A DNA stretch of 32,231 nt from Desulfuromonas sp. (lineage in GTDB: Bacteria > Desulfobacterota > Desulfuromonadia > Desulfuromonadales > BM501): assembly GCF_002868845.1 (NCBI RefSeq), contig NZ_PKUB01000018.1, positions 3,483-35,713 of the forward strand. Direction: 5' to 3'. The notes below the pieces were generated by a model. It had not been told where the DNA came from, ran no database searches, and saw only the letters and a program-made list of their open reading frames with translations. The position numbers and the translations under genes are program-made. Each line of letters starts with the position of its first letter. Positions within the stretch are counted from its first letter, which is position 1. Positions 2,176 through 16,113 of this stretch are shown here, one piece after another.

Positions 2176-2361
2176 GTCATGGCCCCTTCGAATCTGGTTT
2201 TCCCCTCCGGTATATCCGAAAATCGATATGGACAAAGGATAGGCTTGTGATTGAATCTTTTCATAAGTGACAGTTTTCCCGAAATATTGGGGCGCCCGAC
2301 ATCAGGGAACCACGGAGAGGTTGAAAGATGCTCCTGTTCCTTAAGAAAGGAGATGGACACC

Positions 2362-2925
2362 ATGGGTTTAAAGAAACCGCCATATCTGGCCCCCTGGCTT
2401 CTGCTGCTCGTTTTGGGATTGGTCGTTTGCGACCCTGCCTGGGCCGCCCGTGCCCGTCCTGACATGGCCAAGAAGGTTGGGGACCGAGCCCCGATCTTCG
2501 CCCTGGCTTCCTCCGAGGACCGCCTGGTCGACTACGACCGCGACTACTACGGGCAGCACCACCTGGTTCTGACCTTCTTCCCCGCGGCCTTCACCCCCGT
2601 CTGAACGGGGGAAATGGAGGGTCATCAGAGGAACCTCGACCTCTATGACCGCTTCAACGCCCGCGTGGCGGGTGTCAGTCGCAACGATGTCGAGACCCTG
2701 AGGTTCTGGACCCGTGAGTTGGGCCTGACCTTTCCCATCCTGTCAAATTCGGTGGGACACCTGGGGATATGGTTCGGCACCCTGAGAGAGGGTTACCCCA
2801 TGTTTTCCCGCAAGTCGGTGGTGATCGACAAGTGGGGGAGGATCCGCTATATGCGCGACGGTTCTCCCGATTACCGGGAGATCCTTCTGGTGCTGAAGAA
2901 ACTCCACCGGGAGGAGGAGATATGA
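2362..2925 (+). CDS. Exported selenocysteine-containing peroxiredoxin (TGA at codon 81)
   Basis: Read through the in-frame TGA at 2602-2604, this is a 187-residue AhpC/TSA-type peroxiredoxin. The start is ATG 2362, preceded by AAAGGAG at 9 bases; the ATG at 2353 lies directly against that site. Residues 1-28 form a Sec signal peptide (cleavage probably after AWA). The peroxidatic motif P-x-x-x-T-x-x-C appears as PAAFTPV-U at 74-81, with the TGA exactly where the catalytic Cys belongs. The fold continues unbroken: TGEMEGH follows, then SRKSVVID with the conserved Arg150. The mature protein has no cysteine, so without Sec it would have no catalytic residue; it would be a one-Sec enzyme reduced by an unknown partner. 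Role: peroxide reduction in the periplasm (family knowledge). A following lipoprotein overlaps by ATGA. A nonsense mutation is the alternative, but the position makes Sec far more likely. Confidence 0.88.
2620..2650 (+). promoter_or_regulatory. Candidate bacterial SECIS hairpin
   Basis: Sixteen bases after the TGA (2602-2604) the mRNA can fold into an outer 6-bp stem (GGUCAU 2620-2625 with AUGACC 2645-2650), a bulged C, an inner 5-bp stem (AGAGG 2627-2631 with CCUCU 2640-2644), and an eight-base loop starting 27 bases after the UGA. This is in the distance range of bacterial SECIS elements. If the top pairs open, the loop begins with G, as expected for SelB recognition. Folded by eye only. 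Confidence 0.5.
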
Positions 2926-3545
2926 AACGACAGATCATGGGGAGTCTACCCTTCTTACTGGTCGGCCTGATGGTTCTCGGCGGGTGTGCTTCATCCGTCA
3001 ATCCTTCTCTTGACCCCTGGGGCACCATGCGCCAAGTTGACGGGAGTGTCGTATGGCAGGAGGAATACGCTTTCGAGCCCCCTCCCTTACCCTGGCGGAT
3101 CCTCGATTTGGACGAAACCGACATCTCTCTCGCCTTCTTCCGGGGCTGCAAGGGGGATGACCCTGGCAGTTATCCCTGCGAAAGCACTTTCGCTTATGCC
3201 GAGGAGCCCTTTGGTTATTCGAAGGAACTTATTCAGCGCCAGGAGGAGTTCTTCAAGCGATTTCTCTGGGCGGCCCGGGTTGACTTCAAGCCTCCTCAAC
3301 TCAGGCCACTTCAGATCCTCGGAGAAGAGGGGCTCGAAGTGGTGACCGAGGGGATTGAACCGGTCCTTCGGCACAAGGTGTACTGCAAGGTTCTTTTGGC
3401 TCGGCGCGGTGAGCGTGTGGTGGCCTTTCATTTTACCCAATGGCGGGCCGCCGATGAGGCGTACGACCTGGCTCTGGTGGAAGACTTCGACCGCTTCGTC
3501 GACTCCTTCCGGTTTCAGAAAATATCCTTCTACGAACTTCTCTAG
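2922..3545 (+). CDS. Lipoprotein of unknown function coupled to the Sec-peroxiredoxin
   Basis: A 207-residue lipoprotein. ATG 2922 overlaps the peroxiredoxin stop as ATGA and is preceded by GGAGGAG within the upstream gene, so the pair is translationally coupled. The signal peptide ends in a lipobox (VLGGC, lipidated Cys22). The mature part is acidic and aromatic, with cysteines in FFRGCKGDDPGSYPC that could form a disulfide and another in KVYCKV. No known family is recognised. Because its translation depends on ribosomes reaching the end of the peroxiredoxin gene, production may be tied to UGA readthrough. A periplasmic or outer-membrane location is likely, with a possible function alongside the peroxiredoxin (inference from coupling only). 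Confidence 0.82.
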   Translation: MKRQIMGSLPFLLVGLMVLGGCASSVNPSLDPWGTMRQVDGSVVWQEEYAFEPPPLPWRILDLDETDISLAFFRGCKGDDPGSYPCESTFAYAEEPFGYSKELIQRQEEFFKRFLWAARVDFKPPQLRPLQILGEEGLEVVTEGIEPVLRHKVYCKVLLARRGERVVAFHFTQWRAADEAYDLALVEDFDRFVDSFRFQKISFYELL

Positions 3546-4813: not shown

Positions 4814-7312
4814 ATGGGAATTTTCCGGCAAGCGCCGATCAGGCACAAACTGAACCTGCTCATTCTGCTCGTCAGCGTCATCATCCTGCTGCTGACCACA
4901 GTCGCGTTTATTGTTATCGAAACGGTCTCCTACAAGAGAGCCGCTATTTCTGAACTCTCCTCTCTGGCCGAAATCATCGGAGCCAACAGCCGATCGATGC
5001 TGGTTTTTCGTGACCGGGCCGGGGCAGACAAGATGCTGGCAGCCCTTGCCGAAGAACCAAGTATCCGTTTGGCCTATCTTTTCGACAGAAAGGCCCGGCT
5101 CTTTTCCCGGTACGCCAAAACCTCTGTCCACCTGACCGAAGGGGATTCCTCGCGGGGTTCTCTCCCCGGACAGGTTCTTCAGGCTATCGAGGCGAGTCGG
5201 GGTGCCCACCTTTTCACCTCCGACCACCTGACCCTGGCGGCGCCGGTCATACACGACGGGCAGCACCTTGGCATGGTCCTTTTGCAGAGAGACCTGAGCG
5301 TTTTGCAAAAGCGTCTGCTCTGGTTCGGCGTTGCTGCCGTCTCCATTTTCGGTTTGCTCATCCTTCTGGCCTTTCTCATCGGGGCCAAACTGCAGAATCT
5401 GGTCTCCCGTCCCATTCTCAATCTTCTCGATACCGTGAAAGCCGTGGCCGATGAGGAAAACTTCGCATTGCGGGCCCGAAGGGGGAGCGGGGATGAGGTC
5501 GGGCAGTTGATCGACGGGTTCAACGATCTGCTGGCCCGCATTCAGGAGCGCGACTCAGAGCTTCACCAGCACCAGCACCACCTGCAGGAAATGGTCGATC
5601 TTCGGACCGGGGAACTGCTCATGGCCAACGTGGAACTGCAGGAAACCGTTCTCGACCTGGGCAGGGCCAACGAGGCTACCGCCGCCGCTAACGATGAACT
5701 GCAAGTGGTCGTCAACGAACTCGAACGCGCCAAGGCGGAGGCCGAGTCCGCCACCCTGGCCAAGTCGAATTTCCTTGCCATCATGAGCCACGAGATTCGC
5801 ACCCCCATGATCGGGGTCCTCGGCATGAGCGAACTGTTGCTGAAGGGTAAACTCGATTCCAACCAGCGCAGCCTGGTTGAGACCGTACATAATTCAGGGG
5901 ACGCCTTGCTGACCATTCTCGACGACGTTCTCGATTATTCCAAGATCGAGGCGGGCAAGCTGGAACTTGAAAGGGTCGACTTCGACCTGCGCGAGACCGC
6001 CGAGGCCGCTGTCGCTCTTTTTGCCCAGAAGGCCCATGGCAAGGGGCTTGAAATCTCCTGCCAGATCAAGCCGGGCACCCCCGAGTCCCTGCGTGGCGAT
6101 CCGGCACGCCTGCGCCAGGTTCTGCTCAACCTTGTCGGAAACGCGGTGAAGTTCACCGAGAAGGGGGAGGTGGCGATCCGGCTTTCCTCCCTCAGCGAGG
6201 AAGACGGCTCTCTCCTGCTGCGCTTCGAGGTCTGCGACACGGGGGTGGGAATCCCCCGGGAGGTCCAGGAGACGATTTTTGAATCCTTTTCCCAGGCCGA
6301 CAATAACACCACCAGGAAGTTTGGAGGGACCGGGCTCGGGCTGGCTATCACCAAGCAGCTGGTCAGCCTGATGGGCGGGGAGATCTGGGTGGAGAGCGAA
6401 GAGGGAAGGGGGGCGTCCTTTATCGTCGTGGTTCGGCTGGAGAAGCAGGAGCGCCTCCGGTTGTGCCATCGGCCGCTGCCAGAAGAACTCATGGGGGGCC
6501 GTCTCCTTCTCGGGAGCCGCCACGGGGGGACCCGTGACATGCTCCTGAGTCAGTCCGCAGCTCTCGGCGTGGCAGCGGACAGCGCCCCCGATCTTCCCCG
6601 GGTTCTCGATCTGTTGCGCCAGGGCGCTCGGGAGGAGCGTCCCTACCGGGTCGTCCTGATCGATGCCGATCTGGCGACGGGGCCAGGCGGGGGTCTGGAC
6701 TCCGCACTGACCATGGAGGCCTCGGCAGCCGGCACCCGCCTGGTTCTTCTCTGCCGGCAGGATCGGCGCTACGAGGATCTGGACAGGGGGAGGTGTTCGG
6801 ACGTCGAATGTTTGTACAAGCCCGTGCGGACAGCGACACTGGCCCAGTTTCTCGCCCGCGTTGGCAAAGAAAACGAAAATGCGCCCTCGCCCCTTTCCCC
6901 GCTCGCCGGGGAGGGGGCAGCGGACGATCGGAAAACTTCTGGGTGACGAATCCTGATTGCCGAGGACAACGCCACCACCCAGCGCCTGCTGAAAATCCTG
7001 CTTGAGGGAATTGGCTGCCAGGTGACCATCGTCGACAACGGCCTCGAGGCCGTCGAATCGGCCGGTGGGGGGGGGTTCGACTTGATCCTGATGGACGGGC
7101 AGATGCCCCAGATGGACGGCCTGGAGGCGACCCGCAAGATCCGGGAACGGGGCATCTCCGTTCCGATCGTCGCCCTGACCGCCCGCGCCCTGAAGGAGGA
7201 CGTCGATATCTGTCTCGCCTCGGGGATGGACGACTACCTGAGAAAGCCCTTTAAGCAGAAGCAGCTTCAAGGAATGGTGCACAAGTGGCTGGATGCTTCT
7301 CCCGCGGCGTGA
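4814..7312 (+). pseudogene. Hybrid sensor histidine kinase, C-terminal receiver split off by in-frame TGA
   Basis: Start at ATG 4814 (MGIFRQ), chosen because the first membrane segment follows; the ribosome site is weak. Order: membrane segment about residues 15-40, a periplasmic sensor resembling CHASE8, second membrane segment about 165-190, HAMP, coiled coil, HisKA with His326 (SHEIRTP), HATPase with N443, D475 (DTGVGIP) and GGTGLGLA from 504, then a degenerate receiver lacking the acidic pair, then a Pro/Ser-rich linker. An in-frame TGA (6944-6946, codon 711) stops the chain; the same frame then continues as a complete receiver (RILIAEDN, Asp761 in LILMDGQMP, Lys811), ending at 7312. The receiver has no proper start after the TGA; GTG 7022 would lack the acidic pocket. 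The first 710 codons still encode an intact kinase core. Either a nonsense event, readthrough, or a sequence error. Confidence 0.8.
6891..6917. repeat. REP-like GC palindrome inside the kinase linker
   Basis: CCCTTTCCCCG (6891-6901) can pair with CGGGGAGGGGG (6907-6917) around a five-base loop, with two G-T pairs: an 11-bp stem. It is translated as a low-complexity [12 protein letters not shown] linker, typical of REP-type palindromes inserted in reading frames. The in-frame TGA lies 27 bases downstream, in a GGGTGA tail that could belong to the element. Confidence 0.55.
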
Positions 7313-7346
7313 AACCGCCCCCCTGCGGTTTTCCATTATCGAGACC

Positions 7347-10300
7347 ATGAGCAAGAAACTCTTCCTTTTGATTGTCATCGGTATTGCTGCCTGGTCAGGC
7401 CTGCTGGCCTTTCTGGTTCGGCTTGCCATGGAGGCCGACGGCGTGCCGAGCGCACCCGTCATGACCGCGGTCTCGACCCGAACGGTCGATGACGGCGCGC
7501 TGCTGGAGGTTTCGGTTACGGGGGAAGGCCTCGATGAGTCGGTCCGGGCCGCGCTCTACGCGGACCTTTCCAACAGCCGGGCCATCGTCGGCTCGCTGGA
7601 CACCCTCGGGTTGTTTACGGGGGTGGCGGTGGCCGATGGCAGGGCTTACCTGGCCAGCAGCCATTACGGGATGCAGGTTGTCGATGTTTCAAACCCCTCC
7701 AGGCCCCATTTTCTCGGGGCCATGAGCACGCCCGGAAAGGCGATCAGTGTGGTCCTTCAGGGGGATCGGGCCTATGTCGCGGACGGCGAGGGCGGTCTGC
7801 TGATCGTCGATGTCAGCGACCCGGAAAATCCAACCCTGGTCAGTACGGTTCCCCTTCCCGGGGTGACCTGGGAGCTTGCCGTCGCAGGCGACCTGGTGTT
7901 GACGACTAACGGCAAGAATGGAATCCATGTCGTCGATGTCGCCGATCCCTCCGAACCGAAGCTCCTGTCCCGGTTTGACACCGAGGGGTTCGCCTGGTCC
8001 GTTTCGATTGAAGGGGACCGAGCTTATGTCGCCAATGACAGAAAAGGTCTTCTGATCCTGGACATCGGGAATCCGTCCTGCCTGCGGAAGGTTGCCGAGG
8101 TCGACACCCCGGGGATAGCCAGGGGCGTGGCCTCGGCCGGGGACCTGGCACTGATTGCCGACTTTCGTGAGGGACTGCATGTTGTCAGCCTGTCCGGGGC
8201 GCAGGGGCCCGCAATTATTGGTCACGCGGATATCCCAAACTGGGTCACGAAGGTCACCTGCCGGGGGGGGCGCGCCTATATCTCTGCCGGGCCCTCAGGG
8301 CTGGTCGTCGTGAATCTGGATGATCCGGCCAGACCCAGGATCGAGGGAGTGGTCGATACCAAGGGCATAGTCCGTGGGGTGGCCCTCGACGGGGACTTCG
8401 CTTTTCTGGCGGACGGCAGGACGGGGCTGAAAATCTTGGAACTGCCTCTGCCAGAAAGCCCAGAACTCCCAACGGCCCCCACGGCCGGTCGCGTCGGCGC
8501 CTTGGCACCTGCCGGAGACTTGGCCTACGTTGCCAGTGATCATCACGGCCTGCAGGTTTTTGATCTGAAAACTCTAAAAACGCCGAAACTTATCGGCTCG
8601 ACAGGTACGTTTCAGAAAGGGCGAGAGGGCGATGCCCTTGTAAGGAGCCCGACAGCTTCCGTTGATGTTGACGTGGACGGGAACCTCGGTTGCTTCCTTA
8701 ACGATGGGCATGTGATGGCCATCGACCTTCACGACCCGAGGGGGCCTTCGGTCGTCGGTTCGGTCAAGTCCCCCGGCACAGCCATTGGTGTTGCGCTTCG
8801 CGGGGATGTCGCCTATCTGGCCGACGGAGATTCCGGATTTCAGGTTGTCGATCTCACCAACCCGCGTCACCCCCGTCTCGGGGGTTCCGTGGAGACTCCC
8901 GGCAGAGCCTGGGGGGTTGCCCTCGACGGTCCTCGAGCTTATCTCGCCGACGGGGAGGGGGGGCTGCAAGTCCTGGACATTCAGGACCCACTCCGCCCCA
9001 AGGCGCTAGGTCGGCTTCAGACCCGGGGGGTGGCCAGGGAGGTGGCCGTTTCCGGGAACCTGGTCCTGGTGGCCGCCATGGAGGGCGGGGTGCACCTGGT
9101 CTCGGTGGAAGACCCGTCACGGCCTCGTCTTCTCGGAACGGTCCAAACCGAGGGCAGGGCCTTTGGGGTTGCCGTTGCAGGGAACCTGGCCGCAGTCGCC
9201 TGTGGGACTGAAGGGGTTCAGCTTTTTGATCTCCTGGATCCCATGAAGCCCCTGCCACTCGGGCGGCTGAATGTCCCCCTAAACGCCTTGAAGGTGGCCC
9301 TCGCCGGGAGCCAGATGTACGTCACCTGCGGAAGGGGCGGACTGCGGATCGCAGATATCAGTGACCCCCGCATTCCGCGGATCATCGGATCGTCGCCCGC
9401 AGCAAGCAGTTTTGTCGAGGTTTGCCTGGCAAACGATCTGGTCTATCTCGTCGATTCGCTTTTCGGGATCCGGGTTGTCCAGGCCAAAGACCCCTTCCAC
9501 CCCGAAATCGTCGGCAGTCTTCCTGTTTCGGCCCAAGGCAACGACCTGGTACTGGCAGGGGACCTGGTTTACCTGGCCGCGGGGGCCGAGGGAGTAAAAA
9601 CGGTGAACGTTGAGGATCCCCAGCGTCCGGTTTTAACCGGGTCTCTGGCGTTGGAAGGGCTGGCCCACGGCATTGACCGGGGAAACGGTCATCTCTTCGT
9701 GGCCGGCGGCCGTGACGGCCTCTTCGTGCTCGCTCCGGAGGGGCGGGCCGGGTTGCGGCTGGCGGGGCGGCTCGGGACCGCGGGGTATGCAAGGCGGGTC
9801 TGCGTGAAAGACGGCAGGGCCTACCTGGCTGCCGGGAAAGGCGGGTTGCACATTATCGACATCAGGGAACCGGCCCAGCCAAAACTCTTTGCAACCTTTT
9901 CATTGCCCTGGCCCGAGGAGGCATTTGGCTTCGCATTTGATGTGGCCGTTTCCGGGGAGCTGGCTTATGTCGCCCACGGGCGGGGAGGGCTGACCGTTGT
10001 CGACGTTCGCGACCCCCTTCGCCCGAAGCTGATGAGCCAACTGGGCATTCCTGGCTTCTCTCGCGCCGTGGCCATTGACGGGGAGCGGGCCTACCTCGCC
10101 TCCGGCCATGGAGGGGTGGTCGTCGTTGACGTGGCCGACCCGCGGCGACCCGTCCTTGTCGCTTCTTACCTGGGCATCACCGAAGGTCAGGACGTGGCCG
10201 TCCATCGCGGCTATCTGCTCGTTGCCAACGGAGGGGGCGGCGTTTTGTCCGTGCCAACTCCGATGGAAGTTCCCTGCGTCGATGTCCAGAACCGGAACCT

Positions 10301-10412
10301 GGTCACTTTTGAGGTCACCGGCCTCGATCCCTCTTTGGCCTATTCCCTCCGTCTGTTCAATCGTTTCGGTTCCAGTGCGTTTCCGGACGTCCTTCGTCTG
10401 CCCGCAGACTAG
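7347..10412 (+). CDS. Membrane-anchored LVIVD-repeat beta-propeller protein
   Basis: A 1021-residue protein starting at ATG 7347, 34 bases after the kinase reading frame ends; the ribosome site is weak. Residues about 4-26 form one hydrophobic segment (signal anchor or uncleaved signal), so the rest should be periplasmic. I count about 20 tandem repeats of 42-48 residues, each with the LVIVD pattern (G-L-x-V-V-D-V-x-D-P-x-x-P-x-x-x-G) preceded by A-Y-V/L-A. Twenty-one blades would fit three seven-bladed propellers. The last 55 residues are a separate, probably beta, domain. LVIVD propellers are thought to be extracytoplasmic binding or scaffold proteins; no catalytic motif is seen. It converges on the TonB-dependent receptor gene, sharing a CTAG at the stops, so a joint role is plausible but unproven. 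Confidence 0.85.
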   Translation: MSKKLFLLIVIGIAAWSGLLAFLVRLAMEADGVPSAPVMTAVSTRTVDDGALLEVSVTGEGLDESVRAALYADLSNSRAIVGSLDTLGLFTGVAVADGRAYLASSHYGMQVVDVSNPSRPHFLGAMSTPGKAISVVLQGDRAYVADGEGGLLIVDVSDPENPTLVSTVPLPGVTWELAVAGDLVLTTNGKNGIHVVDVADPSEPKLLSRFDTEGFAWSVSIEGDRAYVANDRKGLLILDIGNPSCLRKVAEVDTPGIARGVASAGDLALIADFREGLHVVSLSGAQGPAIIGHADIPNWVTKVTCRGGRAYISAGPSGLVVVNLDDPARPRIEGVVDTKGIVRGVALDGDFAFLADGRTGLKILELPLPESPELPTAPTAGRVGALAPAGDLAYVASDHHGLQVFDLKTLKTPKLIGSTGTFQKGREGDALVRSPTASVDVDVDGNLGCFLNDGHVMAIDLHDPRGPSVVGSVKSPGTAIGVALRGDVAYLADGDSGFQVVDLTNPRHPRLGGSVETPGRAWGVALDGPRAYLADGEGGLQVLDIQDPLRPKALGRLQTRGVAREVAVSGNLVLVAAMEGGVHLVSVEDPSRPRLLGTVQTEGRAFGVAVAGNLAAVACGTEGVQLFDLLDPMKPLPLGRLNVPLNALKVALAGSQMYVTCGRGGLRIADISDPRIPRIIGSSPAASSFVEVCLANDLVYLVDSLFGIRVVQAKDPFHPEIVGSLPVSAQGNDLVLAGDLVYLAAGAEGVKTVNVEDPQRPVLTGSLALEGLAHGIDRGNGHLFVAGGRDGLFVLAPEGRAGLRLAGRLGTAGYARRVCVKDGRAYLAAGKGGLHIIDIREPAQPKLFATFSLPWPEEAFGFAFDVAVSGELAYVAHGRGGLTVVDVRDPLRPKLMSQLGIPGFSRAVAIDGERAYLASGHGGVVVVDVADPRRPVLVASYLGITEGQDVAVHRGYLLVANGGGGVLSVPTPMEVPCVDVQNRNLVTFEVTGLDPSLAYSLRLFNRFGSSAFPDVLRLPAD

Positions 10413-12886
10413 AAAAAGCACTCCACCCCCACCCAGAACTGGCGACCCAGCCGGTATCCAGCCCCTTCCTCGATCCTGATTCTGCTGTTGAAGACGTTGG
10501 AGATCTCTGCGTTCAGGGCGAGGAGGGCCGGACCCAGCTCTCTCTGCCATGCGAGCTTCCAGTCGAAGGTCAGGGCGTCGGGCCTTTTGACCCTTTCGTA
10601 GACCGCCAGGGATTCAACGATCTCCTCCCCCGTTCCCGGGTCGATGCGGCGCTCGCCCTCAGGGACCGGTTTCTCCTCATCGGTGTTGGCCACGTCACGG
10701 TAGCTGCCGGTGTATTTTGTGAAATTGGTGAAGGTCAGGCCAAAGGGCAGGCGGGCGATGTAGGTCAGCTTGCCCTCCCAGCGCTCGTAGTTTTCCTCGG
10801 GCAATTGGCCCAGGTAGACGATCTCGTTTCCGAACCAGACTCGCGCCTCGCCCTCCTCCTCGTTGATGATCTCGTCCAGGTCGGTGTTGGTCGAGCGGGT
10901 CTGGCGCCAGACCGCGTTGAGGGCCAGGGAGTGGCCGGGCCAGTAGCGCTCCCAGGAGAGGCGCAGGCTGTCATGGCGGCTGCAGCCCTCGTTGGTCAGC
11001 CTGTAGTAACGGAGACCGTCCGGCTGCAGGGGGCCGTACTGGCGGGCGAACTCGTCGCTTCCCTCGCGGTAGACGTACTTCAGGCTCAGGCGCCCTCCCA
11101 TCAGGGATTGGTCCAGCCCTAGCGTGGCCTCGTCAGAGCGGGGCGTGTCGAGGCGGGAGAAGCGATGGACATTGGTTCCCTGGAAAGGGGCCGGCTCCCA
11201 GGCGGTCAGGCGGTTTTGATGGGAAGTCCGGGTCTCGGCGGCCGGCGGGGCGATGGCCTCGCGCAGCTTGTAGGTGAGCAGGGTCCGGCCGTAGTAGCGG
11301 TTCAGCCCCCCGGTGATGACCGTTCGTCCCTTGCCCTTCAGGTCGTAGCTCAGGCTGAGCCGGGGGGACAGGTTGGCGTTTTTCATGAAGTCGTCGTAGG
11401 AGAGGCGCAGCCCGGGAAGGGCCTGGAAGTTCCCGAACCGGGCGCGGTCCTCGGCGTAAAGGGCGACCTGGGTGATGGTCGCCTCGGTGGAGCTCTTGCG
11501 GTAGACCTTGCGTTCGGTGAAAAACTGCTCGCCCTCCTCGCAGGCGAACTGGTCCTCCCCGCAGACGATGTCGGGGGAGATCCGTGCCTGTCGGTAGTCG
11601 TAGGTGGTGAGCGGGCGGTCGTAGGTTCCCCGGGTGTTCTCCATGTCCCAGCCGAGGCCGATGCCGTGCTCGGCCGGTCCGGCGAGCAGGGGGGCGAGGG
11701 TGACATCCCCCTTGAATTGCCAGGTCCGCTGGGTTTTTTCGATGTCCCCCCAGCCCCCCTCCTGGCTGTAGTCCGATCCAGCTGCCCGTCCCCAGTCCTT
11801 GGTGTCGGTCGCCGCCCAGCTGCGGAAATGCCGGGGGGCGTCGCGGCTGTTCTCGCTCTGGCGATAGGCCGCCCTCAGGTCCAGGTCTCCCGCCGGGAAA
11901 AAGCGGTAGTAGCGAAGGGCGCTCAACAGGCCGCTGCCTTCGATGCGAAAGTCGCTGCCGAGGGCGTTGGGAATGAAATGGTCGCTCCGGTAGGGGGAGT
12001 AGACGGCGGTCAGGTCGAGAAGATCGTCCGGGGAAAGGTCGCTGGTGGCCTTCAGGGTGTAGTTCTCCAGGCGCCTGATCTGGTCCCGGTAGCCGCCGAG
12101 GTGAGCGAGGGGGATTCGCGAGTGGAGGAGCTGGTAGGCCGGCAGTAGGCCGAGGCGCTCGGTCAGGGGGAGGTCGAGGCTGATGCCGGCGTGCTGTTTT
12201 TCAAAGCGCGGCTGGCGGCTCGCCGTGTTCGAGTGGTCGAAATCGTACCGATCGGCGTCGTCGAGGTGAAACTCTGTCCAGCCGTCACGGGTGGTGCGGA
12301 AAAAGAGATTCCCCCCATATCGTTTGCGGGGGCCCCGGGCCGTGGTCTCCACGACTCCCCCGGTGAAGCCGCCGAAGCGGGCCGGGACGTTGGTGTCGTA
12401 GAGGGTGATCTCCTCCACCAGGGAGGTGTCGAGAAAGATTTCCTGGGGGTGGCCGGGGACGTTTCCGACCGAGTGCGGGTTGCGGGTCGTGGGGTCGAGA
12501 AGGCTGTTGTTGCCGATCCCGTCGATGGTGAAGACGTTCTGGTAGGCCCTCCCCCCGGAGATGGAGACGTCCGGAGGGAGGATCTCCCCCCCGGTGAGGG
12601 AGGAGCGGGCGGGGTCACGGAGCTGGACGTCGGGCAGGACGTCGAGGACTTCGTTGACGCTTCCGTTGCCCCGGGGAAAGCCCTCGAGCACCTCCCTGCC
12701 GATCGTGGTACGGCCCGCGGCCCCGATGTCGAGAATGTGGCCGATGACCGTGACCGGCGCAAGCTCCTGGACCGGCGAAGCCTCCTGGGCCTGCGGCGGC
12801 GGACCGAGGGGGACCAAGAGCAGGGCGGCCCCCCATGCCAGGGCCGCCCAGAAAGGCAGGGATGCAAAGCGGGGAGACGGGGGCAT
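10409..12886 (-). CDS. TonB-dependent outer-membrane receptor
   Basis: 825 residues. ATG 12886-12884 overlaps the stop of the upstream lipoprotein gene as TGATG, so the two are translationally coupled. A signal peptide of about 33 residues (cleavage near PPQAQ) is followed by a TonB-box-like ELAPVTVIG. The plug domain, about residues 45-165, includes SVNEVLDVLPDVQLRDP, a VFTIDGIGNNSLLDP segment and VEEITLYDTNVPARFGGFTGGVVE. The remainder is a beta barrel of alternating aromatic strands that ends in Phe, the usual outer-membrane assembly signal. A Cys442/Cys449 pair in one loop may form a disulfide. The substrate cannot be told from sequence: no siderophore, cobalamin or glycan genes are adjacent. 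The coupling to a large lipoprotein and the nearby tonB suggest a self-contained uptake system. Confidence 0.9.
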   Translation of the reverse strand: MPPSPRFASLPFWAALAWGAALLLVPLGPPPQAQEASPVQELAPVTVIGHILDIGAAGRTTIGREVLEGFPRGNGSVNEVLDVLPDVQLRDPARSSLTGGEILPPDVSISGGRAYQNVFTIDGIGNNSLLDPTTRNPHSVGNVPGHPQEIFLDTSLVEEITLYDTNVPARFGGFTGGVVETTARGPRKRYGGNLFFRTTRDGWTEFHLDDADRYDFDHSNTASRQPRFEKQHAGISLDLPLTERLGLLPAYQLLHSRIPLAHLGGYRDQIRRLENYTLKATSDLSPDDLLDLTAVYSPYRSDHFIPNALGSDFRIEGSGLLSALRYYRFFPAGDLDLRAAYRQSENSRDAPRHFRSWAATDTKDWGRAAGSDYSQEGGWGDIEKTQRTWQFKGDVTLAPLLAGPAEHGIGLGWDMENTRGTYDRPLTTYDYRQARISPDIVCGEDQFACEEGEQFFTERKVYRKSSTEATITQVALYAEDRARFGNFQALPGLRLSYDDFMKNANLSPRLSLSYDLKGKGRTVITGGLNRYYGRTLLTYKLREAIAPPAAETRTSHQNRLTAWEPAPFQGTNVHRFSRLDTPRSDEATLGLDQSLMGGRLSLKYVYREGSDEFARQYGPLQPDGLRYYRLTNEGCSRHDSLRLSWERYWPGHSLALNAVWRQTRSTNTDLDEIINEEEGEARVWFGNEIVYLGQLPEENYERWEGKLTYIARLPFGLTFTNFTKYTGSYRDVANTDEEKPVPEGERRIDPGTGEEIVESLAVYERVKRPDALTFDWKLAWQRELGPALLALNAEISNVFNSRIRIEEGAGYRLGRQFWVGVECFF

Positions 12887-15800
12887 CAGTCGGCGAAGAG
12901 GGGCCGCAGGTCCTCCGCGTCGGAGATGCCGTCCCCGTCGCTGTCTTCGTCCAGTTCGAGGCCCGAGGCGAGGATGTCCTCTTCGGAGGCGAGGGGGTTG
13001 AAAAAGTCGGGCCGGCCGTCCCCGTCCGTGTCGACGTTGGCCACCCAGGTGTCGGCGAAGGCGTCCTGCTGGGCGAAGGCCTCGGCGATGGCCTGGATGG
13101 CCAGGTAGCGGTCCTCGGCGTAGGGGATGGCGTTGGCCAGATCCAGGGCACGTTCCATGTCTCCGGCGTCAGCGTAGCCGCCGACGATATGGTCTTTTTT
13201 GTCGTCCACGTATTTTTCAATCCGGGTGGCCTCGACGAAGATCTGGTCGGCGGTGTCGCGCGCGGCGTCCACGATCGCCAGGGCCCCGGCCCGGTTGCCC
13301 GCCTGGACCATGTACCGGGCCGCGTCGAGAAGATTGTCGACCTCGTCCTCGGCCAGGTCGTCATGGTCGTCGCCGGTGTAGTCCGTCCCCTCGTCGAAGA
13401 TCGCCATCGACCGATCGGCAAAGCGCTCGATGGCGGCCTCCGCCCCGGTAAAGTCCTCCATCTCCAGGTAGGCCCGTGCCAGGACCTCGAAAAGCTCGGC
13501 TCCGTCCTCCGCGCTCGCCCCCAAACCGAAACTCTCGGCGGCAACGAACGCTCCTTCCATCAGGCCGGCCGCCGTCGAATAGTGGCCGAGGAGGTCGTAA
13601 ACGAGGGCGAGGTCCGCAGATCCCTTGACGAGGTATTCGGGCTCGGCCATCTCGCCGAGGACCGCTTCGCCCCGGGCCAGCAACTCGGCGGCAATGTCGC
13701 TCTCCCCGATCTCCCCGTAGAGGTCGGCCACCTTGGCATAGCCCTGTTGGATCAATTGGACATACCTGTCCTTGTCGCTGGAAGGTTCCAGGGTCGCAAG
13801 AAGCTGGGTCGCCGCGTCGAGCGCCCGTTTTGCCAGGGCGAACTCCCCGTCCAGGATGTAGGCCAGGGCGATGTATTCGGCTCCCTTGTTGACCGCGAAA
13901 TAGGTCAGCGCCTCGATCTTGTCCGTGTCGGCCGGCAGGCGTTCGTTCACGATGACCAGGGCGGCGTCGAAGCCGGAGATGAGGGCCTCATAGGTGGCCA
14001 CCAGTTTGTAGGCTTTGGTCTGGTAACTGGTGCCGTTCCTCGTAGAACCGAACTGGTTGACATAGGTGTCCGGGATGGTTTCGGCCAGGGCGAAGGCCCT
14101 TTCAGCCTCGCCGGCCCGGTAAAGGAGTTCCACCAGGGCGGGCACATAGACCCAGGTGGCGTCCAAGGTGAGCCCTTCCAGGCCGTCATCTTCCCGGATG
14201 GCGATGAGCTGGTCGCAGATTTCAAGGGCGACCTCAGACTCACCCAGGTCCGCGAAGCGCTCGGCCGTTTCCAGGAGGTAGAAGGTCTTGAGCCCGTAGT
14301 AGCTCTTGCCCTTGGACTCGTTGGGGGGGGTCTCCAGAGCATAAGCGTAGAGGGAGTCGAGCAGGGGCATGGCGCCTGCGAGGTCCCCATCTTCCAGATG
14401 GGCATCGAGGACTTTCAGGGTCCCGGTCAGCAGGCGGCTGTAGGTTGTGTAGGTGCCGAGATAAGGGACCAGGCTCTCGATGTATTTAAGGACCTCCTCG
14501 GTCCTCTCAAGAGCGCCCGCTCTGCGAAAATCGGCTCCCAGAAATTGAAGGTTCAAAATATCATCTTTGCCGACGCTGGCTTTGCCCTTGGCCTCGATGA
14601 TGTCCAGGTAGAGGGCAAAGGCCAGGTCGAGGGCCTCGACCGCTTCCATGGGCCTGCCGAAGTCCCTCAGGCTCTTGGCCAAATCCCGGTAGGCATCGGC
14701 ACGGACCTGGGATTGGTAGATCTGGGTCGCGATGAGGGATGCCGCCTCGTCAAGGAGACCCGCCTGGGCCTTGCCCCCGGCGACCTCTCGCATGATGGGG
14801 TCGTTGGCGGCGTCGTCGAACACCATGGCCGTCAACTGCTCGGCCCGGTACAGGTGGGAGAGGTCCGAACCGTAGTAGTAGGCGAGGCGCTTGGCGTTGT
14901 CGTCACCGGGAATCTCGTGCAGCAGCAGGGGCTCCGCGCTGCTGTAGAGGGTATCCGTCTCCGCCAGTGATGCGATCTGCGGGTCGGCCTCCAGGGGGAC
15001 GGGAAGGCCATTTTCCTCCTTGACCAGAAGTGCGGAAAAGTCGGCGGGCTCCGCCTCCAGCCACTCCAGGGAAGATAGGCCGTAGCTGAAGAGGACATAG
15101 CGGGTAATGCGCTGTAGCGCGACGCCGTCGAGGGGGATGGTCTTCTCCGCCGCCGCGGTCAAAACCATGTCTGCAATGAGGTCTGACTTTTCATCGACCG
15201 CGAGGCGGGTCTCTTCGGAGAGGCTGCTGCCGGGGCCGGCTTCCAGTAGGCTGCCGAGGGCGTCGGCAAAGCCGGAGGCGATCGACGCTTGTTTGAAGAT
15301 GGTCGCCGGTGAGAGTTGGCTTCCGCCGCAGAGAGCGCTGTAGAGCTTTTGCGCCGAATGGATTTGGGCGTCATCGAGGCCCAGATCGGCGAGCAGGCCG
15401 GGGTCAAGCGACCCGGTTCCGGTGACCAGAGGCTCTTCCCCCGCCTGCCGGGCGAGGTGCGCCAGGGGGTCGGCTATCCCCACCTGTCTCAATTCCAGAG
15501 CCAACCGGCTCAGGAGCAGGGAGCGTTTGAGCAGTTCCGGATCGCTCGACGGCGATGCACCGAGAGCCATTCCGGCTTTCAGCCCGAGCCACGAACGGAT
15601 ACGCTGCTCCGCCTCTGCGGGGCTCTCCCCGCTGTGAAGCGAGGCGGCCAGGAGGGAGGTCGCCGGAGTTACCGTGATGGACTCCTCCAGTCCTGCAAAG
15701 TGGGCCAGGGACGACCGCAGGGCGATCCCGGTGAAGTCGGCCCCGGTTTCGGTGTCCAGGCCGCCGGTGGCGACAACTTCGAGGGGTTCGAGGCTCGCCC

Positions 15801-16113
15801 CTTCAGCCATTTCGAAGGAAAAAGCGCCATGGGGACCCGTTTTCGTTTCGCAGCGCCCCGTACCGCTGGGGCCGCAGAGGCGTGAAACTTCATCCGTATC
15901 GGTGTCAACGATTCGAACGATCGCTCCTGCGATAGGCCCGTCCTCGACGGTTCCCGCGAGGGAAAGGGCACCGGGCCTCGAGTCAGTGCCGTCTCCTCCG
16001 CCGCCACAGGCTCCGAGGAAAAGGGCGAGAAGAAGCGACAGGCAAAGACGATGGTTCAGCGATTTGAGCAGGGTGCCGGCAGCGGGAAGCGAGCGCAGGG
16101 AAAGGCATTCCAT
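12886..16113 (-). CDS. Large lipoprotein with helical repeats and C-terminal calcium motifs
   Basis: 1075 residues. Start ATG 16113-16111 with GGAGGA six bases upstream. The signal peptide ends in LFLGAC (lipidated Cys36), followed by a Gly-rich tether. Residues about 48-130 look like a carboxypeptidase-regulatory/Ig-like beta domain (AGTVEDGPIAGAIVRIVDTDT). From about 440 to 1000 the chain is helical, with repeated TPR-like pairs (for example LVYDLLGHYSTAAGLMEGAF and ARAYLEMEDFTGAEAAIERF). The last 50 residues hold two thrombospondin type-3-like calcium loops (DTDGDGRPD and DEDSDGDGISD). It is coupled to the TonB-dependent receptor by TGATG. By analogy with SusCD pairs it could be the surface substrate-binding lid of the receptor, but it is not a SusD homologue that I can recognise. 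Very acidic overall. Confidence 0.85.
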   Translation of the reverse strand: MECLSLRSLPAAGTLLKSLNHRLCLSLLLALFLGACGGGGDGTDSRPGALSLAGTVEDGPIAGAIVRIVDTDTDEVSRLCGPSGTGRCETKTGPHGAFSFEMAEGASLEPLEVVATGGLDTETGADFTGIALRSSLAHFAGLEESITVTPATSLLAASLHSGESPAEAEQRIRSWLGLKAGMALGASPSSDPELLKRSLLLSRLALELRQVGIADPLAHLARQAGEEPLVTGTGSLDPGLLADLGLDDAQIHSAQKLYSALCGGSQLSPATIFKQASIASGFADALGSLLEAGPGSSLSEETRLAVDEKSDLIADMVLTAAAEKTIPLDGVALQRITRYVLFSYGLSSLEWLEAEPADFSALLVKEENGLPVPLEADPQIASLAETDTLYSSAEPLLLHEIPGDDNAKRLAYYYGSDLSHLYRAEQLTAMVFDDAANDPIMREVAGGKAQAGLLDEAASLIATQIYQSQVRADAYRDLAKSLRDFGRPMEAVEALDLAFALYLDIIEAKGKASVGKDDILNLQFLGADFRRAGALERTEEVLKYIESLVPYLGTYTTYSRLLTGTLKVLDAHLEDGDLAGAMPLLDSLYAYALETPPNESKGKSYYGLKTFYLLETAERFADLGESEVALEICDQLIAIREDDGLEGLTLDATWVYVPALVELLYRAGEAERAFALAETIPDTYVNQFGSTRNGTSYQTKAYKLVATYEALISGFDAALVIVNERLPADTDKIEALTYFAVNKGAEYIALAYILDGEFALAKRALDAATQLLATLEPSSDKDRYVQLIQQGYAKVADLYGEIGESDIAAELLARGEAVLGEMAEPEYLVKGSADLALVYDLLGHYSTAAGLMEGAFVAAESFGLGASAEDGAELFEVLARAYLEMEDFTGAEAAIERFADRSMAIFDEGTDYTGDDHDDLAEDEVDNLLDAARYMVQAGNRAGALAIVDAARDTADQIFVEATRIEKYVDDKKDHIVGGYADAGDMERALDLANAIPYAEDRYLAIQAIAEAFAQQDAFADTWVANVDTDGDGRPDFFNPLASEEDILASGLELDEDSDGDGISDAEDLRPLFAD

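Follow-up and report, generated by a model that had tools for sequence, protein, structure and literature searches.

Selenocysteine (Sec) containing peroxiredoxins are an established kind of selenoprotein (Prx, PF00578, with the motif TxxU / PxxxTxxU), and the characterised case given in the available part of PMC13188914 is PrxU of Eubacterium acidaminophilum. In PMC1794560, 12 Sec peroxiredoxins are counted in the genomes covered, with Geobacter metallireducens and Syntrophus aciditrophicus among the species for which a peroxiredoxin is listed. The window (by which we mean the whole stretch of 32,231 nucleotides of Desulfuromonas sp. that was analysed) encodes a protein that resembles the PrxU type in being a thioredoxin-fold AhpC/TSA protein with a probable Sec at the peroxidatic site of PxxxTxxU. 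Unlike the PrxU type, it appears to be exported, its mature chain holds no other Cys and its gene is paired with the gene of a predicted lipoprotein. Against the PrxU equivalog NF040737 (peroxi_PrxU) it scores 32.1 bits, which is below the cut-off of 270.

The features of the locus are collected in Table 1. According to the initial annotation, an in-frame TGA sits at the peroxidatic position, the frame continues as a peroxiredoxin on either side of it and the mature chain is free of Cys. All of this was borne out: the position 2602-2604 is exact, and in the alignment the Cys of Mycobacterium tuberculosis AhpE is the counterpart of residue 81; the read-through product matches AhpC-TSA in Pfam with 74 bits (cut-off 26, E 1.3e-20) over residues 39-164, a match that crosses the TGA; and the only encoded Cys, residue 23, lies inside the hydrophobic N-terminal signal stretch (MGLKKPPYLAPWLLLLVLGLVVCDPAWA, the signal peptide being judged by eye). 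Arg150 aligns with the part of AhpE in which the active-site Arg (R116) lies, and the P, T and U as well as the conserved Arg are kept in the window protein and in the main group of its relatives. A peroxiredoxin fold is predicted for the enzyme (model pLDDT 93.0), with Bcp4, Bcp1 and AhpE as best matches; of the five enzyme models made, two had a mean pLDDT of 71 and 67. The initial annotation also stated that standard gene callers would split the gene, and indeed the frame breaks at 2602-2604 into two fragments under the standard reading, so that databases probably hold the gene in pieces.

Table 1. Features of the peroxiredoxin-lipoprotein locus (positions in the window)
Feature	Position	Strand	Remarks
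Ribosome-binding-site-like AAAGGAG	2346..2352	+	9 nt ahead of ATG 2362, read directly
Exported Sec peroxiredoxin gene (predicted)	2362..2925	+	187 aa by read-through of the TGA, then stop
Signal peptide, residues 1-28	2362..2445	+	by eye, cut after AWA; predicted helix 11-30
Active-site motif P-x-x-x-T-x-x-U, residues 74-81	2581..2604	+	sequence and alignment
In-frame TGA, very probably read as selenocysteine, residue 81 (PAAFTPVU)	2602..2604	+	relatives, hairpin
Hairpin, candidate SECIS	2616..2655	+	15 pairs, 8-nt loop, -18.5 kcal/mol
Arg150 of the peroxiredoxin	2809..2811	+	aligns with AhpE region holding active-site Arg
Lipoprotein gene, 207 aa, LGGC lipobox	2922..3545	+	only conserved neighbour; predicted Mog1/PsbP fold
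ATGA overlap: lipoprotein start / peroxiredoxin stop	2922..2925	+	

Elsewhere in the window, a short ORF at 1848-2096 has a Tat-like signal (RRDFLRKSAYAAYATPVIMAM), a Gly/Asn-rich tail and no match in Pfam, and a 1039-aa ORF at 7293-10412 carries nine LVIVD repeats above threshold. On the minus strand, an 825-aa ORF (10409-12886) with only a weak beta-barrel match adjoins a 1075-aa ORF (12886-16113) for which no Pfam match was found.

To specify the identity of residue 81, relatives were collected in several ways. Peptide patterns that did not include the TGA gave 47 matches, of which 26 were confirmed, and all 26 carried TGA as the corresponding codon. When 395 phylum genomes were searched with a profile, 21 matches turned up in 20 genomes (E <=4.7e-50), each with an internal TGA and well separated from the other peroxiredoxins, which start at E 1.3e-28. 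The 136 genomes of the order gave 25 matches, spread over 22 genomes; 21 of the matches have the TGA and four are free of a stop, and these four have a Cys exactly at the TGA position. Within one family, all 16 matches, which came from 15 of the 17 genomes, had the TGA; the phylum, order and family samples overlap. Of the 72 loci examined 71 fitted the pattern, and these 71 collapse to 48 distinct members; L105 (pattern mismatch, one TGA in the family search) and a fragment on G237:C96 with one TGA were left out of the collection. The codon at the peroxidatic position is TGA in 44 of the 48 and Cys in the other 4, which agrees with the expectation that the aligned residue in homologues should be Sec or Cys only. 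On a quick tree the Sec/Cys difference amounts to one change, with the Cys clade as sister to the Sec gene L106, a placement that falls under the long-branch warnings given for these trees. The nearest named relatives are metagenome-assembled genomes of the Desulfuromonadales. As for the TGA that ends the gene (2923-2925), a role as C-terminal Sec was rejected: it is mostly part of the ATGA overlap, and TAA takes its place in L030 and L048.

The earlier finding of one redox residue, no resolving Cys and an export-type N-terminus turned out to apply to the whole family. In all 47 complete members (L035, the remaining one, is truncated) the U is followed by no Cys, and any Cys ahead of it is at least 55 residues away; a mature chain that offers no resolving Cys fits a 1-Cys (1-Sec) peroxiredoxin. 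In a few members (L010 and, less clearly, L013, L014, L035, L085 and L093) an N-terminal Cys could be lipid-bearing.

The genome contains what Sec insertion requires by the initial annotation, namely selA (615 bits), selB (391 bits), selD (340 bits; the gene itself has one TGA) and the tRNA-Sec, selC (75.7 bits against a cut-off of 47; anticodon tca according to ARAGORN). The four genes lie within about 8.2 kb on contig C56, which is not the contig of the window. Of the 42 genomes with the module 40 have selA, the two misses being drafts that are 78 and 81% complete, and selA is still present in G397, a genome with the Cys form only. Two other AhpC-TSA genes of the genome have an in-frame TGA: L109 (G000:C42:26131-26502) encodes FTPVU, lacks a signal peptide and looks cytosolic, and L114 (G000:C21:39592-39942) encodes a UxxC protein with HWUPFC.

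The candidate SECIS hairpin and the downstream lipoprotein gene were both absent from the initial annotation. When the stability of the hairpin was compared with that of synonymous recodings (400 per gene for the 44 TGA members, 1000 per gene for the 4 Cys members), the hairpin was stronger in all 44 TGA genes (z -5.52 to -2.26, mean -4.27). In the 4 Cys genes it was weaker or absent (z -2.36, -0.80, +0.42 and -0.68), with an overlap of the classes at the Cys gene L098 (z -2.4) and the weakest Sec gene, L085 (z -2.3). These Cys members without a strong hairpin provide natural controls for both the Sec and the SECIS claim. The excess stability was not seen in L109 (z +0.5) and L114 (z -0.4), and the stability test is therefore no general detector of Sec genes. 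Synonymous codon identity reached 0.70 over the first 17 codons behind the UGA (16 columns) versus 0.47 elsewhere (62 columns), based on 34 of 35 distinct members with the truncated L035 left out; the Mann-Whitney p of 3e-4 treats the columns as independent, and the sequences are related. Considering the 44 TGA and 4 Cys codons, the Sec genes in the genome and the hairpin in the 44 TGA genes, the UGA at 2602-2604 is very probably read as Sec.

In the hairpin alignment, which leaves out L057-L060 (hairpin shifted by one base), 91.7% of the cells are paired, a level reached in 0 of 500 shuffles, and columns 30/39 show G-C in 27, A-U in 8, G-U in 3 and a mismatch in 2 of the 40 sequences. Covariation as such was low: one of the 15 pairs changed on both sides, which 478 of 500 shuffles reach as well, the further pair types numbered 4 against 5.0, and controls slid by -3, -1 and +3 outscored the hairpin on the covariation score. 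Only 2 independent coupled changes fall on well-supported branches of the tree, too few for coupled changes to reach significance. RNAalifold, applied to the 40 distinct hairpin sequences, returned a different and weak consensus (-6.1 kcal/mol), and an Rfam scan of the window gave no match. The bSECIS model, as described in the available part of PMC13188914, allows a loop of 3-9 nt, a stem of 4-16 bp, a spacing of 16-37 nt and an energy <=-7.5. The hairpin stays within these size and energy limits, with an 8-nt loop, a 5-bp upper stem and a spacing of 27 nt from the UGA. The model also calls for a G among the two leading nucleotides of the loop; no such structure was found in the window within 4 kcal/mol, and one is present within that range in 20 of the 44 members. 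According to the same review, a subset of bacterial elements fails the model.

Clustering of the ORFs around 27 loci brought out, apart from frames of the peroxiredoxin gene itself, a single conserved neighbour, the downstream gene, which occurs in 26 (the 27th locus is cut). A search for partners upstream gave none conserved family-wide; overlapping shadow frames aside, the clusters cover at most 12 of the 27 loci. Among the 48 distinct members 46 have the downstream ORF, in 38 cases with a 4-base overlap and in 8 after 12-37 nt, and the two without a readable partner are L035, which is cut, and L101, where the partner lies beyond unreadable letters. For L101 an apparent gene fusion (a 414-aa frame) was discarded, as the frame crosses the unreadable letters between the two genes. 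A lipoprotein profile matches all 46 downstream ORFs whose DNA could be read (25 of them built the profile and 21 did not), and 44 of the 46 pass a simple lipobox pattern. The pair is present in 20 of the 395 phylum genomes and in 22 of the 136 order genomes. The lipoprotein was recovered in 21 of the former, namely these 20 and G150, in which the contig start truncates it, and in 23 of the latter, namely these 22 and G491, where it is a 48-residue remnant; in the phylum and order genomes searched it was thus found alone only twice. The remnant (L120, G491:C1:2350832-2350975) lies in a single-contig genome in which no peroxiredoxin match of the window's family was found, and it is possibly a relic of a lost pair.

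The partner has no Pfam match below E 0.09 in 25 members and no PDB sequence match at E 1. Its structure model (pLDDT 84.6) has PsbP as best Foldseek hit (E 6.5e-5), and its invariant residues include E48, W58, Y92, E94, R106, R113, R162, Q173 and W174. The location of the peroxiredoxin gene beside the lipoprotein gene suggests that the two proteins act jointly against peroxides at the cell envelope.

The Sec/Cys position, the export-type N-terminus, the hairpin, the insertion machinery and the linkage of the two genes were established by computation. As to function, we infer that the protein is probably a one-Sec envelope peroxidase of the AhpE/BCP type with a dedicated lipoprotein, and this covers the activity, the cellular side, the donor and the role of the partner. 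The UGA would be decoded as Sec with the aid of the hairpin directly downstream, and the enzyme would be made together with the predicted Mog1/PsbP-fold lipoprotein, whose gene follows with an overlap. Once in the envelope, the enzyme would use its selenolate to reduce H2O2 or organic hydroperoxides, and the selenolate would thereby become a selenenic acid, which would be reduced back by an external donor, needed because the chain of the enzyme has no resolving Cys. The lipoprotein would most likely dock, recruit or present the enzyme at a membrane. On contig C9, a CcdA-like gene (C9:84056-84712) lies 110 nt from a gene for an exported CPPC thioredoxin-like protein (C9:84822-85160), and a plausible candidate for the donor is this CcdA/TlpA-like reducing branch.

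A bolder version, which we put forward tentatively and which has the lesser chance of being right, is a dedicated, selenium-dependent redox unit of two parts in the envelope, in which the exported Sec peroxiredoxin, its SECIS hairpin forming a class of its own, works only with a lipid-anchored Mog1/PsbP-fold protein, the latter serving as reductant adaptor or as receiver of the oxidation. If true, it would amount to peroxide defence or sensing of a new type outside the cytoplasm.

Alternatively, the pair could be a peroxide sensor or relay, in which the Sec protein is oxidised and passes the oxidation on to a signalling or acting lipoprotein without bulk clearance. The near-obligate pairing would suit such a role, as would an enzyme free of a resolving Cys and a Cys pair near residues 70-86 that is found in 18 of the 46 partners, including that of the window. 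However, Cys is missing beyond residue 36 in 7 of the 46 partners and the Cys positions differ between clades, so that a Cys relay cannot be general. The reading as a whole is unlikely. The same 7 partners led us to reject a partner Cys as universal resolving thiol.

Still less probable is a role as exported Sec thiol oxidoreductase, or in the handling of selenium or sulfur, with little peroxidase activity. This idea draws on a divergent group (L098, L100, L101, L102 and L106; four with Cys, and L106 with Sec) that has lost the P and T of PxxxTxxC/U and stays paired, with partners that carry Cys beside the invariant TQW; peroxidase chemistry would thus be dispensable in some pairs. Against it, the window protein and the main group keep the complete set of P, T, U and Arg, and the best fold matches are peroxiredoxins. 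The least credible reading takes the TGA for a genuine stop or a pseudogene lesion, with the frame behind it not made as part of one chain. It would account for the two fragments of the standard reading, but is opposed by the TGA that 44 of the 48 members share within a protein conserved to either side of it and by Cys in the other 4, by the Sec genes of the genome and by the conserved hairpin.

Sec peroxiredoxins as such are already known. The pairing of an exported Sec peroxiredoxin with a lipoprotein was not found in the literature searched, mostly without subscription papers and in the parts available of PMC13188914, PMC1794560, PMC2398784, PMC9312934 and PMC1914089, and within that literature the new element, which we did not find in print, is the exported subfamily paired with a lipoprotein. 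The initial annotation regarded a signal peptide on a Sec peroxiredoxin as unusual. Export indeed extends across the family, but it is not unique to it, since a second group of exported Sec peroxiredoxins (L061-L064) also has a signal-peptide-like N-terminus, FTPVU (FTPVUTGEMQAFQ) and no other Cys in the matched stretch; export is therefore not peculiar to the window's family. This second group falls outside the branch of that family (support 98), and the lipoprotein was not matched in its genomes.

The lipoprotein resembles the Mog1/PsbP/DcrB-like fold: its model aligns with 3lyd_A at Z 12.4 (rmsd 3.6, 139 aligned) and with Mog1 (1jhs) at Z 12.1 (rmsd 3.6, 157 aligned), with about 10% identity to Mog1/PsbP-like proteins, and such a shared fold shows no function. 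For the enzyme itself, the best structural and sequence matches are AhpE of M. tuberculosis and the archaeal Bcp1/Bcp4. AhpE likewise lacks a resolving Cys (the title of 1xvw names a 1-Cys peroxiredoxin). It differs in having Cys instead of Sec, and the matched PDB sequences have no signal peptide. The thiol donors of AhpE are cytosolic. Peroxide handling in the periplasm or at the outer surface of anaerobic, Sec-rich bacteria is, to our knowledge, poorly known, and a Sec enzyme outside the cytoplasm without a resolving thiol raises the question of its reductant there, for which the linked lipoprotein provides a named suspect.
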